The notes under the pieces were generated by a model. The model searched no databases, was not told where the DNA came from, and saw nothing but the letters and a program-made list of their open reading frames with translations. The translations under genes and the position numbers were made by a program. From NCBI GenBank assembly GCA_016744805.1, contig JADGDQ010000007.1:1-64000 (forward strand): a DNA stretch of 64,000 bases. The letters are read 5' to 3'. Within the stretch, counting starts at the first letter, position 1; each line of letters starts with the position of its first letter. Positions 14,003-21,113 of this stretch are shown piece by piece. Source of the DNA: Sulfurovaceae bacterium (GTDB taxonomy: Bacteria > Campylobacterota > Campylobacteria > Campylobacterales > Sulfurovaceae).

Positions 14003-14048
14003 GGCTAGATTTAAATCATTTAAAGTCAGACCTGAAATTAAAATTAAA

Positions 14049-14070
14049 GGGTCAGGTGATGCATTATGCG
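14049..14070 (+). repeat. boundary repeat, copy 1
   Basis: The first full copy of a 22-base repeat that begins GGGTCAGGTGATGCATTATG. It stands just upstream of the first MNT promoter (TATAAT at 14098-14103). Related copies follow at 14484-14522, 15154-15171, 15616-15637 and, inverted, 18932-18954. Confidence 0.85.
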
Positions 14071-14477
14071 TTACTATTAACTTTTATACTATTTTACTAT
14101 AATAATTCCAAAAGAGGCTATCTCAATGAGATTCTCCTTGGCAGAGATAAATCATCTTAAAACTACGCTCTCTAAACTCTCTACAGAAGCTAAAATATAT
14201 CTTTTTGGAAGTCGTGTAGATGAAAATAAAAGAGGTGGAGATATTGACCTTTTGATTCTCTCTAGCAAACTTACACGCAAAGATATAAGAGAAATCAGAA
14301 TAGAGTTTTGCAAGGAGTTTGGAGAGCAAAAAATAGATATTCTCCTAGATACACCTACACCTAGCAATCCATTTACACAATTAATTTTTCCTAAGGCTAT
14401 AGAGTTATGATGATAGAAAAACTAAATCAAGATTATAAGCTACTACAAAAACAACTCTTTTGGCTTGATATATCCTA
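14054..14477 (+). repeat. 424-bp direct duplication, copy A
   Basis: This segment matches 15155-15578 at a constant offset of 1101 bases with no gaps. I count about ten substitutions by eye. It carries part of the boundary repeat, a promoter, a complete MNT gene and the first 23 codons of its HEPN partner. Confidence 0.93.
14126..14410 (+). CDS. MNT-domain nucleotidyltransferase (MntA-like antitoxin), copy A
   Basis: A 94-residue minimal nucleotidyltransferase. The active-site pattern is complete: GSR at 28-30, then GGDIDLLIL with the metal-binding Asp39 and Asp41, and a third acidic residue at Asp71 in KIDILLD. Proteins of this family pair with HEPN ribonucleases, and the MntA type silences its HepT toxin by adding AMP residues. 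Here the partner gene, which overlaps by ATGA at 14407, is only a 24-codon remnant, so the antitoxin appears to stand alone. A TATAAT box at 14098-14103 lies upstream. The 15227-15511 copy is almost identical. Whether it still acts on a HEPN protein elsewhere in the genome cannot be told here. Confidence 0.85.
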   Translation: MRFSLAEINHLKTTLSKLSTEAKIYLFGSRVDENKRGGDIDLLILSSKLTRKDIREIRIEFCKEFGEQKIDILLDTPTPSNPFTQLIFPKAIEL

Positions 14478-14481
14478 CTAA
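14407..14481 (+). pseudogene. truncated HEPN (HepT-like) toxin gene, copy A
   Basis: The frame starts ATG at 14407 in ATGA overlap with the MNT gene and encodes 24 residues, starting MMIEKLNQDYKLLQKQLFW and ending LDISY, then stops at TAA 14479-14481. The sequence resembles the first helix of HEPN partners. The rest of the domain, including the RNase RX4-6H motif, is missing. The break lies exactly where the boundary repeat begins. Confidence 0.65.
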
Positions 14482-14483
14482 TA

Positions 14484-14522
14484 GGGTCAGGTGATATCAG
14501 GGGTCAGGTGATGCATTATGCG
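14484..14522 (+). repeat. boundary repeat, copy 2 (partial plus full)
   Basis: A partial copy, GGGTCAGGTGAT at 14484-14495, is followed by a full copy at 14501-14522. They lie between the first HEPN remnant and the end of the frameshifted nuclease-like gene, whose stop codon begins 3 bases further on. Confidence 0.85.
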
Positions 14523-14525
14523 TTT

Positions 14526-15102
14526 TTAATAACTTCTAATCTCTTTATGCTTCTCCACCATAATATCACCCTTTTTTTGCAATACAAAAAACCCCTCATC
14601 ATTGGCTTTTTTTACTAACTCATCTTTAATAGTAAATCCTGCTACAGCTCCATATATTTTAAAGTTTTTATAGTTAGGAAAAAGCTCTCTAAAGTTTGCT
14701 ATTTGCCTATTCTTTAGATTATCTATATTCTTTGTTTCGTATCTTATTTTTTATCTCTACAATCAATACACTATCACCATTGAACATAATAATATCATAC
14801 TCACCTTTAAGGTCATGCCTAGCATATTGATATAAATTTCTCTCTATATTGTCAAATTGTAACCCTGCTATATTCTTATTCTCTTTTAGTATATTAAAAA
14901 AATAATCTTCGGTAATTTCACCTTGGGTTTTACTAATGCCGTCTATATTTATGGATAGATTCTTTATAAATTCTTTTGTCTCTTTAAACTGCTTATCAGT
15001 CTCTTTAAACTTTTCATCAGTCTCTTTAAATCTTTGAGCTGTCTCTTTTTGCAAGCCTTTTATCTCTAATATCGCTTCTGCTAAATCTTCTTTTGTTACC
15101 AT
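14526..15102 (-). pseudogene. frameshifted coiled-coil/PD-(D/E)XK nuclease-like gene (DUF3782-like)
   Basis: From ATG 15102 the frame gives a coiled-coil N-terminus with repeated KETDEKF-type heptads, then a nuclease-like core (GEYDIIMFNGDSVLIVEIKNK, giving the D and ExK pattern). It then hits a stop at 14719-14721. One base later the reading continues in another frame as YETKNIDNLKNRQIANF, then NFKIYGAVAGFTIKDE, to a stop at 14526-14528. Both halves together match the usual architecture of this family at about 190 residues. The total span is one base more than a multiple of three, so a single-base change near the A-run at about 14749-14754 explains it. The ancestral function is unknown; such proteins often sit in mobile or repeat-rich regions. 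Confidence 0.75.
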
Positions 15103-15153
15103 AATTACAACCTTTTTTTAAATTATAGCATGATGATTATATCTTGTTGATAC

Positions 15154-15171
15154 GAGGTAATGCATTATGCG
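15154..15171 (+). repeat. boundary repeat, copy 3 (degenerate)
   Basis: GAGGTAATGCATTATGCG is a 5'-shortened, slightly altered copy. It lies 51 bases beyond the start of the frameshifted nuclease-like gene and opens duplication copy B. Confidence 0.75.
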
Positions 15172-15578
15172 TTACTATTAACTTTTATACTATTTTGCTA
15201 TAATAATCCCAAAAGAGGCTATCTCAATGAGACTCTCCTTGGCAGAAATAAATCATCTTAAGACTACTCTCTCTAAACTCTCTACAGAAGCTAAAATATA
15301 TCTTTTTGGAAGTCGCGTAGATGAAAATAAAAGAGGTGGAGATATTGACCTTTTGATTCTCTCTAGCAAACTTACACGCAAAGATATAAGAGAAATCAGA
15401 ATAGAGTTTTGCAAAGAGTTTGGAGAGCAAAAAATAGATATACTCCTAGATACACCTACACCTAGCAATCCATTTACACAATTAATTTTTCCTAAGGCTA
15501 TAGAGTTATGATGATAGAAAAACTAAATCAAGATTATAAGCTACTACAAAAACAACTCTTTTGGCTTGATATATCCTA
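15155..15578 (+). repeat. 424-bp direct duplication, copy B
   Basis: The second copy of the 14054-14477 segment. The match ends at the same codon of the HEPN remnant, after which the two loci diverge. Copy B continues AATGAATCCATTATTAG, while copy A goes directly into boundary repeat. Confidence 0.93.
15227..15511 (+). CDS. MNT-domain nucleotidyltransferase (MntA-like antitoxin), copy B
   Basis: A 94-residue protein that differs from copy A at residue 3 (Leu for Phe) and is otherwise the same by eye, with GSR, Asp39, Asp41 and Asp71 all kept. Most substitutions between the copies are silent, which suggests the protein has been under selection since the duplication or that the copies have been converted to each other. 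A TATAAT box at 15199-15204 lies upstream. It is followed in ATGA overlap by another short HEPN remnant. Confidence 0.85.
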   Translation: MRLSLAEINHLKTTLSKLSTEAKIYLFGSRVDENKRGGDIDLLILSSKLTRKDIREIRIEFCKEFGEQKIDILLDTPTPSNPFTQLIFPKAIEL

Positions 15579-15603
15579 TAATGAATCCATTATTAGTTAT
15601 TAG
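15508..15603 (+). pseudogene. truncated HEPN (HepT-like) toxin gene, copy B
   Basis: The 31-codon frame repeats the first 24 residues of copy A and continues NESIISY before TAG at 15601-15603. The SYNE step is how intact HepT-like partners continue, so copy B keeps slightly more of the ancestor. The catalytic part of the domain is absent. Confidence 0.6.
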
Positions 15604-15615
15604 GGTCACTTATTA

Positions 15616-15637
15616 GGGTCAGGTGATGCATTATGCG
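15616..15637 (+). repeat. boundary repeat, copy 4
   Basis: A full copy, preceded by a fragment GGGTCAC at 15603-15609. It ends 16 bases before the TATAAT box of the lamin-tail gene. Confidence 0.85.
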
Positions 15638-15650
15638 TTTAATAATTTTA

Positions 15651-15659
15651 TGCTATAAT
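15651..15659 (+). promoter_or_regulatory. extended -10 promoter of the lamin-tail/DUF4214 gene
   Basis: TGCTATAAT at 15651-15659 is an extended -10 element. AGGAG at 15677-15681 and the ATG at 15689 follow. Confidence 0.6.
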
Positions 15660-15688
15660 GAATACTATTATTTTCTAGGAGTATTCTA

Positions 15689-17203
15689 ATGACAAACCAA
15701 GAACTTAAAGCCCTCGTTAGCAAGAGTAAACTTGTGAAAACTTCTCTTGTAATCTTCTTACTACTCTTTTTTCAACCCCACCTCTTGGCTCAATTAATTA
15801 TTACTGGTGTATTAGATGGTCCTCGAACAGGAGGGAAGCCAAAATGTATTGAACTCTATGCACTAGAGGCTATTGAGGAGTTGAGTATCTATGGTGTTGG
15901 ATCGGTAAATAATGGCAAAGGGGTCTCCAAAAAAGAGTTTACCTTTCCTGAAGGCTCTTTGGATAGGGGAGAGTTTATCTATGTGAGCTATGAGGCTGAG
16001 GAGTTTGCTCAGTTTTTTGGTTTTGCTCCTGAGTATACAGGTGGGGTGGCAAGTATTAATGGAGATGATGCTATTGAGCTATTTGAGGGAGATAGTGTGA
16101 TAGATGTTTTTGGAGATATTTATACCGATGGCACAGGAGAGGCGTGGGAGTATAGGGATGGATGGGTCTATAGAAGAGAGCATGTTACTAGCCCCTCTGA
16201 TACCTTTAGTATGGATGAGTGGGAGTTGAGTGGTGTAGGTGCTTTGGATGATGAGAGCAATAATAGCCTCGCTAGTAACCCCTTTCCTCTTAAAAGTTTC
16301 CACGCTACTCTGCTACAGAGTGGTTTTACACTCTCTACAACGGCTCTAGTAGTGAGTGAATCTAGCAATAGCTTTAGTGTGGTGTTGGATATAGAACCTA
16401 AAAGTGATGTAGTGTTGGATATTACTAGTGAAAATAGTGCCAAGATAACGCTCTCTCCCCAGACGCTTACATTTTCGCAGACGACTTGGAATATCCCCCA
16501 AATAGTAACGCTTAACGCTGTAGATGCTAACCAAGTCACTCAAATTACTATAAGTGTAGATGCCACCCATAGTGATGATAGTTTTGATGACCTAAGAGAT
16601 AAAAGTGTGACTGTTACAAGTAGAGAGAGTAGTGTGCAACCTCTCTTTAGACCTTTTGTAACAGAGCCTATAATTGAAGTAGAAAAAGTAGAAAAAGTAG
16701 AAGAAGTAGAAATTGAAGAACAAAAAGAAAGCAAAATAGAAGAGCCAAACCCCATAGAAAATATAGATACAGATAGCCTATTAGCAATGATTACCAAACT
16801 CTATATTACCACATTTGGCAGGGCTCCAGAGATGAGAGGGAGTAACTATTGGCTCTATAAATCTAAGCTCAATTTAGAAGATATAGCAAGAAGTTTTTTT
16901 GACCAAGAGGAGACTCAACAAAAGTATCCTCAGGGCTTTAGTGATTATGACTTTATTGTCTCTATCTATAACCATATATACAATAGAGACCCAGACCAAG
17001 CAGGTGGGGATTATTGGCTCCAAGAGTTAGAGAGTGGCAACATAGAGAGACCACTCCTTATCTTGGCACTTATTAGAGGAGCAAAAGGTGAAGATGCCCT
17101 AATGTTGAAAAAGCAGACTAGAGTGGGTATAGATTTTGCAAAGAGTGGTTCTGTTGATTTGGATTTGGCTAAAAGAGTCTTTGATGAGATAAGGTATAAA
17201 TAA
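15689..17203 (+). CDS. secreted lamin-tail-like protein with C-terminal DUF4214
   Basis: A 504-residue protein. Residues about 14-35 (KTSLVIFLLLFFQPHLLAQ) form a Sec signal peptide. Residues about 36-155 resemble a lamin-tail (LTD) beta-fold: ITGVLDGPRTGGKPKCIELY, then GDDAIELFEGDSVIDVFGD. Residues about 205-305 form a beta-domain with TLTFSQTTWNIPQIVTLNAVD, typical of surface proteins. An acidic Glu/Val/Lys linker follows. DUF4214 occupies about 370-485 (KLYITTFGRAPEMRGSNYW, then YNRDPDQAGGDYW). The last domain matches the N-terminal domain of the S-layer-like protein at 11732. No type I signal is seen, so export is probably through Sec to the periplasm or surface. The function is unknown. 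Confidence 0.75.
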   Translation: MTNQELKALVSKSKLVKTSLVIFLLLFFQPHLLAQLIITGVLDGPRTGGKPKCIELYALEAIEELSIYGVGSVNNGKGVSKKEFTFPEGSLDRGEFIYVSYEAEEFAQFFGFAPEYTGGVASINGDDAIELFEGDSVIDVFGDIYTDGTGEAWEYRDGWVYRREHVTSPSDTFSMDEWELSGVGALDDESNNSLASNPFPLKSFHATLLQSGFTLSTTALVVSESSNSFSVVLDIEPKSDVVLDITSENSAKITLSPQTLTFSQTTWNIPQIVTLNAVDANQVTQITISVDATHSDDSFDDLRDKSVTVTSRESSVQPLFRPFVTEPIIEVEKVEKVEEVEIEEQKESKIEEPNPIENIDTDSLLAMITKLYITTFGRAPEMRGSNYWLYKSKLNLEDIARSFFDQEETQQKYPQGFSDYDFIVSIYNHIYNRDPDQAGGDYWLQELESGNIERPLLILALIRGAKGEDALMLKKQTRVGIDFAKSGSVDLDLAKRVFDEIRYK

Positions 17204-17237
17204 TAGATTATTTTTTCTATAATAAAAAAGGATAAAT

Positions 17238-18113
17238 ATGTGTCAAGTATCAAAATATATCAACCTATTTACTGATTTTGGATTTAAAAAGATATTTGGA
17301 GACCCAAATAGTACCGAGCTACTTCAGAGTCTACTCAATGATATTTTACAATTTAAAGACAGAGACAGAATCAAAAAAATTATATTTAAAAATGGTGAGC
17401 TATTGCCAGAAGCACCCGAAGAGAGAAAAGCCATTATAGACCTGCTCTGTGAAGATGAGAAAGGGAATCAATTTATTGTAGAACTACAAAAAGTATCCCA
17501 AGAACATTTCCAAAGTAGAGCCCTCTACTATACTTCATTTCCTATACAGCAACAAGGGATAAAAGGTGGATGGAATTTTGAACTCACGCCTGTCTATTTT
17601 GTAGGACTCCTTAACTTTGAGATAGAGAGGTTTAAAGATAAAGAAGAGTATCTCCATCATGGTAAAATTGTAGATATATATACGCAAGAGATTATGTATG
17701 ATAAGCTAAATATGGTATACCTTGAAATACCAAAATTAAAAAAAACCAAAAAAGAACTCTCTAATCACTTAGAGTGGTGGATATATACTTTCCAAAATCT
17801 CCATACAATGCATACTATACCCATAGAGCTTCAAGATGATGTGATTAAAAGTGCATTTGAAAAAGCCGAATTTGCATCCATGCCAAAGAGTCAACAAGAG
17901 AATTACCATAAGAACTTAAAAGTCTATAGAGACTTAGTAAATAGTTTTGATTTTGCTATAAAAAGTGGACATAAAGAGGGCAAAAAAGCAGGAATGAAAG
18001 AGGGCAAAAAAGAGAAAAGCTTAGAAATAGCCAAAAACCTATTAGCCACTGATATGGAGTTGGATCTTATATCTAAAATTACAGGTTTAGATATAGAGGA
18101 TATTAAAGAATAG
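17238..18113 (+). CDS. Rpn-family PD-(D/E)XK recombination-promoting nuclease/putative transposase
   Basis: A 291-residue protein opening with YINLFTDFGFKKIFGDPN, the diagnostic N-terminus of the Rpn/PDDEXK_2 family. The nuclease core is visible as Asp68 (KAIIDLL) and Glu82-x-Gln84 (IVELQ). The C-terminal tail has Lys/Gly-rich repeats (HKEGKKAGMKEGKKEK) and a helix (ATDMELDLISKITGLDIEDIKE), also usual in this family. E. coli RpnA-type members cut DNA and raise RecA-independent recombination; whether this copy is active is unknown. It lies 34 bases after the lamin-tail gene on the same strand and converges on the tyrosine transposase gene with a 9-base gap. Confidence 0.88.
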   Translation: MCQVSKYINLFTDFGFKKIFGDPNSTELLQSLLNDILQFKDRDRIKKIIFKNGELLPEAPEERKAIIDLLCEDEKGNQFIVELQKVSQEHFQSRALYYTSFPIQQQGIKGGWNFELTPVYFVGLLNFEIERFKDKEEYLHHGKIVDIYTQEIMYDKLNMVYLEIPKLKKTKKELSNHLEWWIYTFQNLHTMHTIPIELQDDVIKSAFEKAEFASMPKSQQENYHKNLKVYRDLVNSFDFAIKSGHKEGKKAGMKEGKKEKSLEIAKNLLATDMELDLISKITGLDIEDIKE

Positions 18114-18122
18114 AGAATAACT

Positions 18123-18899
18123 TTAAGCCCCATTTATATCTATTTTTTTAATAACTCTCTGCACCGTAGATTGTGCTACTTTCAAAGCTTTGGCTATGGC
18201 GTGTTGTGAGTATCCTAGTTTGTAGGCTTTGCATATAATGCTATTTCTCTCTTTTTTATCTTCAAAACTCTTAAGCATCTTTTGTAGTTTTGCTATATCT
18301 AGCTCTTTTGTATGTGGTACACCCATAAGTGAAGAGGCTCGTTTGAGGTCTTGGAGTTGCTCTTGATCTACTGTTGCATATAAAAATTTTCGTATAGCAT
18401 CTTTGTCCTCTTTGTAGTTTTGTACTATATAAGAGTTTTTAAGCCATTTGGCTAAAGAGTCATAATTGAGAAACTGATGCCCTGAGCTATAAGGGTACTC
18501 TTCTATTGTATGAGCTAATTTGGCTTTGATGGGATTTTGTTCTATATAGATTATAAGTGTATAGAGGTAGGCTTCATCTGTAACAAACCACGAAGCAAAA
18601 CGCCCTTGCCATAGATGCCCTACTCTTTTATATTTTTTGTTAAAGTAAATAGCGTAATTGGCATTGATTTGACGCATAAACTTAGAGAGATTATTTTGTT
18701 GTGTCTCTATAAGTAGATGGTAGTGGTTGGGCATAAGAGCATAACTGTGCATAATAATAGTAAACTCTTTTGTGTATCTCTCTAATAACTCTTCAAAATA
18801 CTCATAATCATCTCTATCCAAAAATATAACTCTTTTTTCTACTCCTCTATTGATAATATGATAATATCCTGCCATATCTACTCGTGGTCTTCTTGCCAT
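18123..18899 (-). CDS. REP-associated tyrosine transposase (RAYT, Y1/HUH family)
   Basis: A 258-residue HUH-type single-strand transposase. The start RPRVDMAGYYHIINRGV is typical of RAYTs. The HUH motif is His59-Tyr60-His61 in LMPNHYHLLIE, followed by GHLWQGRFASWFV. The catalytic Tyr is probably Tyr118 in IYIEQNPIKAKLA. A C-terminal helix-turn-helix (YSQHAIAKALKVAQSTVQ, about 230-247) may recognise DNA. RAYTs are usually single-copy, domesticated genes that spread short palindromic REP sequences. The gene appears intact. An inverted copy of the boundary repeat lies 32 bases beyond its start (18932-18954), as expected for its own flanking element. Confidence 0.9.
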   Translation of the reverse strand: MARRPRVDMAGYYHIINRGVEKRVIFLDRDDYEYFEELLERYTKEFTIIMHSYALMPNHYHLLIETQQNNLSKFMRQINANYAIYFNKKYKRVGHLWQGRFASWFVTDEAYLYTLIIYIEQNPIKAKLAHTIEEYPYSSGHQFLNYDSLAKWLKNSYIVQNYKEDKDAIRKFLYATVDQEQLQDLKRASSLMGVPHTKELDIAKLQKMLKSFEDKKERNSIICKAYKLGYSQHAIAKALKVAQSTVQRVIKKIDINGA

Positions 18900-18931
18900 A
18901 ATGTATCCTTTTTAAGTTATTATAGCATTTT

Positions 18932-18954
18932 TGCATAAAGCATCACCTGACCCC
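18932..18954 (-). repeat. boundary repeat, inverted copy 5
   Basis: On the minus strand this reads GGGGTCAGGTGATGCTTTAT and onward, close to copies 1-4 but in opposite orientation. It marks the right end of the accessory patch, between the transposase start and the formate dehydrogenase-like gene. Confidence 0.8.
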
Positions 18955-19010: not shown

Positions 19011-21113
19011 ATGAAAAATAATAATATTCAAGAGATAGAGAGTGTCTGTACCTATTGTGGGGTGGGATGTGATATTACAGGTGTTGTAGAAAACAATAAA
19101 ATTACCAAAATATATGCTCAAAAAGATGGGCTAGTCTCGCAAGGGAAGCTCTGTATTAAGGGTAAATATGGCTATGACTTTGTGGATGCTTCTGACCGTA
19201 TTAGAGAACCACGCATCAAAAAAAGCTTTTTAGAGAAAAACCCTCTTATCCTCCAAGCAGTACAAGAGAGACTCGTAGAGTTTGACAGCAACTATATGAG
19301 CTGTGACTTGGATACTGCTACTACTATTGCTACAATGAAGCTCTCAGAGGTCAAAGAGCAGTATGGAAGAGAGAGTTTTTGTGCTATTGGTGGAGCAAGA
19401 ACAAGTTGCGAGAGTGCCTACTCATTTCAAAAGTTTTGTAGAGAGACTATGGAGTCGCCTCATGTAGATAACTGTGCTAGAGTCTGCCACTCTCCATCAC
19501 TCAAAGGTATGCGTGCAACCATTGGTGAGGGTGCTGCTACCAACCCCTATAATGATATATATGAGACAGAGTATATGGTTGTTATTGGCTCTAATACTAT
19601 GGAGGCTCACCCTATTATCGCCAACCGTATGGTAGATATGGCAAAAAAGCTAAATAACCTCGCAGTGATTGATGTGCGAGAGACCAAGCTTGCTAAATAT
19701 GCAAAACAAAACTGTATTATCCCCTATGAAGCCAACCTTTTGGTACTTAATATGATGGCTTTTGTGATTATTGATGAGGAGCTGTATGATAAGAGCTTTA
19801 TAGAGACACGCACCAAAGAGTTTGATGCTTTCAAAGAGAAAATTCTTAATGACCCTTATGCTAATCCAAACTTTTTTAAAGAGATAGAGGGGTATGAGTA
19901 TCTAGCAAAGATGATACCAAATATTGCAAGAGAGTATGCGGTCAAAAAGTCTATGCTCTTTTGGGGTCTAGGAATTACCGAACATCTTGATGGTTCGTAT
20001 GCAGTTATGGCGATGACACATCTTGCTATGATGACAGGAAATGTAGGAAAAACTGGTGCAGGGCTTATGCCTCTTAGAGGGCAAAATAATGTCCAAGGGG
20101 CTTGTGATATGGGTTGCCTCCCCTACTACCTCCCAGACTATCAAGAACCCAAAGAGATAGGTCTAATGACTCCTCAACTTATAGATGCTATGCTAGAGGG
20201 AAACATCAAAGCATTACTCAATATGGGTGAAGATATTATGCATATTCACCCTAATATCAACAAAATAGAAAAAGCCTTAGAGAAGCTAGAGTTTATTATG
20301 GTGCAAGAGCTTTTTATGACAGATATAGCCCAAAAAGCTGATATTGTGATTGGAGTGAAGTCTGCGTATGAGAAGACGGGTGTTTATGTAAATGCCATGC
20401 GTAGACTCCACCTTTCGCAACCTCTTGTCCAGAGTGATTTGCCTGATGATTGGGAAGTACTCACGATGATGGATAGTAAACTAGGCGGAAACTTTAATTT
20501 CACAACAAGCCAAGAGGTGTGGGATGAGGTACGCAAAGTAGCCCCAAATAGATTTAGTGGAGCAGACTATTATCGCTTAGAGAGACACCGCAAAAGAGGT
20601 ATGCAGTGGCCAATCTATCACGAAGATACTCCTGTACTGCATCTTTTGGATTTTAGAACAGAAGATGGCTTAGGGAACTATGTCTACCATCAGTACCAAC
20701 CAAGAGGTATGGTTCAGGAGATATTAGATAAAGCATTCTATAATAATAGCCTAGAGGGATACTATCTCACCACAGGACGCACTTTAGCCCACTATAATAA
20801 CTCTGCTCAAACTAAAAGAAGTAAAAAATTATTAAGTAAATATGATGAAGATGTTCTATTAGCCCCTATAGAAGATGAGGGAAAACTAGGTGACTGGGTA
20901 GTACTCAAAACCCAATATGGAGAGACAAATCCTCTACCTGTAAAGTATACAGACAAAGTCAAACCCAAAACACTCTTTAGTACTTTTCACCATAGTAGTT
21001 CACGCATCAATGCGATATTTGGAGATGAGTGTGATGAGTTGATTATGACAGCTCGTTTTAAATCATTAAAAGTAACTGTCGTTCTAGCAGATACTCAGAT
21101 TGGGTGTGGGTAA
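19011..21113 (+). CDS. fdhA: formate dehydrogenase-like molybdopterin oxidoreductase, catalytic subunit
   Basis: A 700-residue cytoplasmic protein without Tat signal. An N-terminal 4Fe-4S site uses Cys13, Cys16, Cys20 and Cys48 (VCTYCGVGC and KLCIKGKYG). NCARVCHSPSL follows, placing Cys159-His160 where E. coli FdhF has Sec140-His141, so the metal ligand is cysteine rather than selenocysteine. Other matches are GANNVQGACDMG-like RGQNNVQGACDMGCLPYYL and a C-terminal cofactor-binding domain ending DTQIGCG. It should oxidise formate or reduce CO2 at a bis-MGD molybdenum or tungsten centre. No electron-transfer subunit or chaperone gene lies next to it, so the partner is unknown. The gene stands between the accessory patch and tsf, and its end is 7 bases from the convergent tsf stop. 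Confidence 0.85.
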   Translation: MKNNNIQEIESVCTYCGVGCDITGVVENNKITKIYAQKDGLVSQGKLCIKGKYGYDFVDASDRIREPRIKKSFLEKNPLILQAVQERLVEFDSNYMSCDLDTATTIATMKLSEVKEQYGRESFCAIGGARTSCESAYSFQKFCRETMESPHVDNCARVCHSPSLKGMRATIGEGAATNPYNDIYETEYMVVIGSNTMEAHPIIANRMVDMAKKLNNLAVIDVRETKLAKYAKQNCIIPYEANLLVLNMMAFVIIDEELYDKSFIETRTKEFDAFKEKILNDPYANPNFFKEIEGYEYLAKMIPNIAREYAVKKSMLFWGLGITEHLDGSYAVMAMTHLAMMTGNVGKTGAGLMPLRGQNNVQGACDMGCLPYYLPDYQEPKEIGLMTPQLIDAMLEGNIKALLNMGEDIMHIHPNINKIEKALEKLEFIMVQELFMTDIAQKADIVIGVKSAYEKTGVYVNAMRRLHLSQPLVQSDLPDDWEVLTMMDSKLGGNFNFTTSQEVWDEVRKVAPNRFSGADYYRLERHRKRGMQWPIYHEDTPVLHLLDFRTEDGLGNYVYHQYQPRGMVQEILDKAFYNNSLEGYYLTTGRTLAHYNNSAQTKRSKKLLSKYDEDVLLAPIEDEGKLGDWVVLKTQYGETNPLPVKYTDKVKPKTLFSTFHHSSSRINAIFGDECDELIMTARFKSLKVTVVLADTQIGCG

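Follow-up and report, generated by a model that had tools for sequence, protein, structure and literature searches.

A short repeat recurs through an array of genes and gene fragments at positions 14049–18954 of the Sulfurovaceae DNA analysed here (64,000 nucleotides, hereafter the window), with a transposase gene at one end. To which element does the repeat belong, and did that element assemble the array? A sequence-only reading had proposed that a RAYT, or recombination between its repeats, assembled or multiplied gene cassettes at this site. The features of the locus are given below, with the repeat named as the terminal inverted repeat (TIR) that it proved to be.

14034..14070, +, outermost TIR copy (14049–14070, GGGTCAGGTGATGCATTATGCG) with AAATTA-like micro-repeats before it
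14126..14410, +, MNT nucleotidyltransferase (MntA-like), copy 1 of the TIR–MNT–HEPN' unit; NTP_transf_2 2e-7
14407..14481, +, HEPN gene, cut after 24 codons
14484..14499, +, partial TIR (GGGTCAGGTGATATCA)
14500..14522, +, TIR copy on the 3' flank of the nuclease-like fragment, which converges on it
14719..15102, −, nuclease-like fragment, frame broken downstream
15150..15171, +, degenerate TIR (ATACGAGGTAATGCATTATGCG)
15227..15511, +, MNT copy 2
15508..15603, +, HEPN gene, truncated after 31 codons at its junction with the following TIR
15597..15615, +, junction micro-tandem duplication TTATTAGGGTCAC TTATTA(GGGTCAGG), of a kind seen across the family
15616..15637, +, TIR copy, shared with the sister genome at the equivalent position
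15689..17203, +, secreted-type DUF4214 protein; Pfam match
17238..18113, +, Rpn/PDDEXK_2 nuclease with a TIR on neither side; Pfam match
18123..18899, −, TIRYT: Y1 HuH transposase with C-terminal helix-turn-helix (HTH); Y1_Tnp 6e-16, weak HTH matches
18932..18954, −, transposase-proximal TIR (GGGGTCAGGTGATGCTTTATGCA), about 54 nt 5' of the transposase ATG

Repeat copies and gene fragments in the window

Exact copies of the repeat (GGGTCAGGTGATGCATTATG) were found on the forward strand at 14049, 14501 and 15616, and 18953–18934 (−) is an inverted copy that departs at one base; 100 dinucleotide shuffles gave 0 matches. The 22-base repeat reported earlier is hence real in three exact copies and one inverted copy, but the copy at 14484 comprises the 5' half only, and the one placed at 15154 (15150–15171) is degenerate with a damaged head. 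The same letters, ATACGAGGT, replace the TIR head in this degenerate copy and in an unrelated TIR at another locus (L237). The copies at 14049, 15150, 15616 and 18953 lie 54–77 nt 5' of a start codon and match the orientation of the gene. Repeats do fall at several gene boundaries, as had been claimed, but no TIR copy separates the DUF4214 gene from Rpn or Rpn from the transposase. A whole-genome search allowing up to three mismatches returned ten sites, including sites on contigs C58, C50 (two), C17, C32 and C66, and none for a reversed control pattern; the repeat was also found in relatives. The literal repeat, searched for in the literature, matched only unrelated papers.

Family searches bore out the tyrosine transposase beside the inverted repeat, the MNT genes, the Rpn nuclease (PDDEXK_2) and DUF4214, and did not confirm two other labels. 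The supposed lamin-tail domain of the DUF4214 protein gave only a weak ExeM match, and the supposed nuclease at 14719–15102 matched nothing in Pfam or NCBIfam.

The MNT copies agree at 97% over a 300-nt stretch, and the homology between their units extends from inside one TIR up to the next TIR. Their coding parts differ by six synonymous changes and one non-synonymous change, a ratio which suggests that both copies were under selection for a time. The MNT protein matched its Pfam family above the cut-off, but scored 20.9 bits against the NCBIfam MntA model, under the 60-bit cut-off. The HEPN genes span 24 and 31 codons in the window versus about 146 in relatives, where MNT–HEPN genes are mostly complete. 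With HEPN truncated in both units, a complete MntA–HepT pair (type VII toxin–antitoxin) is not present. We also rejected MNT genes as regular cargo of the element, since no TIR was found within 100 nt upstream of the MNT–HEPN orthologues in relatives. The antitoxin-like MNT copies are nearly free of amino-acid change though both HEPN partners are truncated, and they are possible orphan antitoxins.

The genome is a draft assembly of 94 contigs, and the array could in principle be an artefact of contigs mis-joined through repeats. We consider this scarcely credible, because the MNT copies differ at several positions and the outer gene order is the same in the assembly of a sister genome.

The repeat as the end of the transposase element

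The constant head (GGGGTCAGGT or a close variant) was present upstream of the transposase gene at every one of the 30 loci fetched first, of which the window is one, and 55 of the 78 elements having an upstream copy carried a matching inverse within 60 nt after the stop codon. Each TIR consists of the constant head GGGGTCAGG and a short, element-specific direct repeat; TAATGATAA, ACGTAATCG, TGCTAATGC, ACAATGACAA, TAGTAATAG, TTGAATATCCAC and others were found in different elements. In this variable part, the two ends of one element differed on average by 1.1 mismatches per 12 positions, compared with 6.2 between elements (50 pairs). One genome (G069) contains two copies at different sites, with 878 bp in common that are bounded by TIRs and with unrelated flanks. 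Taken together, the head 5' of the gene, the inverse after the stop codon, the matching ends and the paired copies identify the repeat as the terminal inverted repeat of the transposase. The repeat in the window is the end of the adjacent Y1 transposase element, and the earlier attribution of the repeat to the transposase was correct.

A typical element of the family contains the transposase gene alone. Mini-elements of about 115–285 bp with a TIR at both ends also occur, and paired TIRs elsewhere enclose mostly transposase remnants or mini-elements, or the copies are single; many of the genomes are metagenome assemblies, and several loci have only 1–1.5 kb of flank. Searches of plasmid and phage collections returned only distant relatives (22–39% identical among the matches listed) and no named mobile carrier. 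Lone TIR-like copies lie 70–150 nt 5' of host genes in the same orientation at L334/L099, L078 (exbB), L331 (GH57-like), L332 and L333 (nucleotidyltransferase); the exbB copy is common to both sister genomes.

The TIR precedes the transposase ATG by a median of 61 nt, and 65 of 77 cases show a TATA-like box. Such spacing would suit stray TIRs kept as promoter or operator sites, at which the transposase HTH or the promoter-proximal end regulates the downstream gene, and so would the TIR-like copies found 5' of exbB, a GH57-like hydrolase, nucleotidyltransferases and RHS genes in the same orientation. We nevertheless consider regulation unlikely as the reason for these copies. The second TIR, after the stop codon, has the variable part as well, at a place that calls for no promoter; several of the stray copies are convergent with genes or lie beside transposase remnants; and conservation was seen only between the two sister genomes.

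These features agree with TIRYTs (TIRtrons), small bacterial mobile elements that form a known family with few studies so far, described by Di Nocera (2013; PMC3733652) as RAYT-like Y1 transposases with flanking TIRs of the consensus GGGGWSAS. The window transposase has a RAYT-like Y1 domain with a HuH motif (HYH at residues 59–61), and GGGGWSAS-type TIRs lie on both sides: GGGGTCAG at 18954 (−) and, in the opposite orientation, the copies at 15616 and 14049 (+), which lie a long way from the stop codon. As with the TIRYTs covered there, the genome also has TIR copies that are stray or paired. Compared with those same elements, the window has a displaced distal end, passenger genes and stacked TIR-bounded units. 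The transposase also resembles TnpA_Y1 subclass 2.1, defined by a long protein with a C-terminal HTH and no hairpin REP nearby (Quentin 2018; PMC6006769). It is long, lacks a nearby hairpin REP and has a C-terminal HTH, seen as weak HTH matches and as three helices in the predicted structure (residues 215–227, 232–239 and 243–255, the last being the recognition helix), separated from the catalytic domain by a low-confidence linker at 193–198.

Is the transposase instead a classical RAYT acting with hairpin REP sequences? Its predicted fold matches TnpA_REP (PDB 4er8), so the catalytic fold is the same, and the 14049 copy can form an 8-bp stem of −2.2 kcal/mol. However, seven of eight tested TIRs showed little or no folding (0 to −1.8 kcal/mol; z from −1.7 to 0.6), no GTAG/GTGG foot was found beside a hairpin, and the variable part is a direct repeat. 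TnpA_REP 4er8 recognises a hairpin with a GTAG foot, and its solved chain lacks the HTH. We regard a classical RAYT as very improbable, and assignment to the REPtrons, which have a hairpin with a GTAG/GTGG foot, was rejected. The RAYT/REP naming was accordingly given up, as the ends have no consistent REP hairpin and the TIRYT description fits.

IS200/IS605 elements have hairpin ends and are not known to have an HTH or inverted repeats at their tips. By homology, they have the HuH Y1 chemistry in common with the window transposase. The TIRs, the region assessed here, showed no subterminal hairpins, and membership of IS200/IS605 was rejected. Integron gene cassettes go with attC sites and a tyrosine integrase; no integrase was present among the ORFs examined here. 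A REPIN-like mini-element, GGTCAGACGATGCATAATGCATAGCTCATACTTCGCTACACATTACGCATCATCAGACCCC, about 60 bp long, was read in three copies (L011 5656; L012 3492 and 5234), and matches to its first 20 bases located two more (G000, C20 and C77).

Co-variation of the recognition helix and the TIR

A few residues in the tail of the transposase closely predict the letters of the TIR. In the helix motif xQyzV, residues yz pair with the half-site of the variable repeat as follows: PA with ATAA, QA with ACAA, PT with ATAG, ST with ACGT, AT with ATGC, and SA or AA with AAAATGACAA. In the predicted structure, yz occupy positions two and three of the recognition helix. The rule fitted 51 of 52 elements, whereas 20,000 shuffles gave 10.4 on average and never more than 23. 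The sole misfit is the transposase of the window itself, which has AQST then QR and an ATGC half-site at 7-nt spacing. The rule was fixed in writing before a second set of elements was fetched. In that set it held for 10 of 11 elements by script and for 11 of 11 on inspection (L237, ACAATGACAA, has a degenerate head), where class frequencies alone predict 1.8; there is some relatedness between training and test elements, and close relatives occur both within the test set and between it and the training set.

On the tree of the catalytic domain, TIR class changed 25 times (minimum 5; shuffled mean 31.8). In the tree pairs listed for each class, the helix class changed likewise or stayed, and the opposite change never occurred. 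Where nearest neighbours differed in TIR class, the helix class also differed in 28 of the 28 rows listed, with catalytic domains up to 91% identical and some pairs counted from both sides. TIR and helix class switch together while the catalytic domain stays alike. In two of three TIR-switched pairs, nucleotide identity drops sharply near residue 195, in the linker. Sign tests for single TIR classes reached no significance because independent pairs are too few, so that the joint tests carry the recognition claim.

From this co-variation, the C-terminal HTH appears to read the TIR. The 2018 study of subclass 2.1 doubted that the C-terminal domain reads a target, or thought that it had evolved to a new one, and left its role open for this widespread group (PMC6006769); the co-variation found here argues for TIR reading. 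Neither the variable direct repeat nor its link to the HTH was found in the consulted passages of PMC3733652. On balance, we favour an exchangeable module in which the initial residues of the recognition helix would specify the variable repeat, and helix and both TIRs would be swapped while the HuH domain stays. Stray TIRs would then serve as docking points at which foreign pieces stack, as in the window. The proposed exchange can be likened to the target domains of restriction–modification systems, which gain new specificity by swapping. The residue-to-base rule makes the role of the C-terminal domain directly testable, and it would allow the partner DNA of many uncharacterised transposases to be predicted from sequence.

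Probable growth of the array at the distal end

The sister genome (Sulfurovaceae MAG, isolate BB41) has, in order, a bapA-like gene, a TIR, the DUF4214 gene, the transposase (on the other strand), an inverted TIR and fdhA. The window retains this outer gene order, with Rpn as an extra gene separating the DUF4214 gene from the transposase. To the left of the 15616 TIR, it contains two units of TIR, MNT and truncated HEPN with the nuclease-like fragment between them. The sister locus lacks both MNT units, the fragment and Rpn. For the DUF4214 protein, the sister alone yielded a full-length orthologue, likewise encoded between TIRs at this site. In both genomes, the second element end lies 1.5–2.5 kb from the transposase with the passenger gene or genes in between; the TIR at 15616..15637 is the probable distal end, assigned from one sister genome.

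Synonymous divergence between window and sister is 0.21 for the transposase (18123–18899) and 0.69 for the neighbouring fdhA (19011–21113), and the lower value may reflect a later exchange. In the sister transposase (L076 5852–6613), the HuH motif HYH is changed to HYD, which may render it catalytically inactive. The regions upstream of fdhA differ in gene content across the genus and yielded no clean empty site, and the stretches fetched from other members, some of them short, contained no TIR head motif. One genome (G001) has a matching right flank (ATAAAGAGCTTTAAGC) with the element absent, which does no more than suggest an empty site.

We consider it probable that the repeats are ends of a TIRYT element whose HuH domain acts at the head and whose HTH acts on the variable part, and that pieces accumulated at the distal end. 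The Y1 HuH transposase gene would normally be enclosed by TIRs composed of constant head and variable direct repeat. The data show that the repeat is the end of the transposase element, that the two genomes differ, that the duplicated unit has TIR boundaries and that helix and TIR co-vary across relatives; binding, cleavage and the order and cause of the rearrangements are inferred. The HuH domain would act at the constant head and the C-terminal HTH would likely recognise the variable part, in which case each transposase would act on its own ends. In the window lineage, about 2.5 kb would separate the distal end from the stop codon of the transposase gene, and the DUF4214 gene and Rpn would lie in that interval. 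TIR-bounded pieces, namely the truncated MNT–HEPN module, duplicated, and the nuclease-like fragment, would have gathered there, most simply by insertion at direct TIR copies and by unequal recombination between them. Ordinary recombination between direct TIR copies could equally build or collapse such an array. Since recombination between the 14049 and 15616 copies would yield the left side of the sister, the comparison does not polarise gain versus loss.

A more active role, in which the transposase or its family captures genes and assembles them as TIR-bounded cassettes, could also account for TIR-bounded units that differ between window and sister, for a duplicated MNT unit that begins and ends at TIRs, and for a passenger gene between inverted TIRs in both genomes. 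We consider such capture distinctly improbable. The second TIR directly follows the stop codon in 55 of 78 elements, the MNT orthologues have no TIR close upstream, and recombination accounts for the array without an active process. Among the loci searched, many of which have short flanks, only the window/sister locus clearly has an intact passenger gene that separates the transposase from the second TIR. Of the 175 family genomes, 18 contained exact copies of the 14-mer GGGTCAGGTGATGC, and a run of three in the same orientation occurred in the window only, in a scan confined to this TIR type and to exact matches. The cassette proposal thus holds in so far as repeat-bounded units differ between window and sister, but the uniqueness of the triple array gives no support to a general cassette role for RAYTs. 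Such a role is unlikely, and local recombination or accretion at the distal end is likely. The pile-up of unrelated genes at TIRs looks like a local accident; scattered transposase ends may make an intergenic site a place where gene fragments pile up.

A 9-mer spanning the element edge recurred within 70 nt outward at 14 of 79 left and 13 of 51 right edges, compared with 20 of 1852 control positions; micro-tandem duplications, such as GGTATAGGGGTCA GGTATAGGGGTCAGG, thus mark about 20% of element junctions versus 1% of controls. Repeated or aborted insertion, or template switching at a nicked edge, are possible sources of these repeats. The base preceding the element is A at 72 of 79 left and 45 of 52 right edges.
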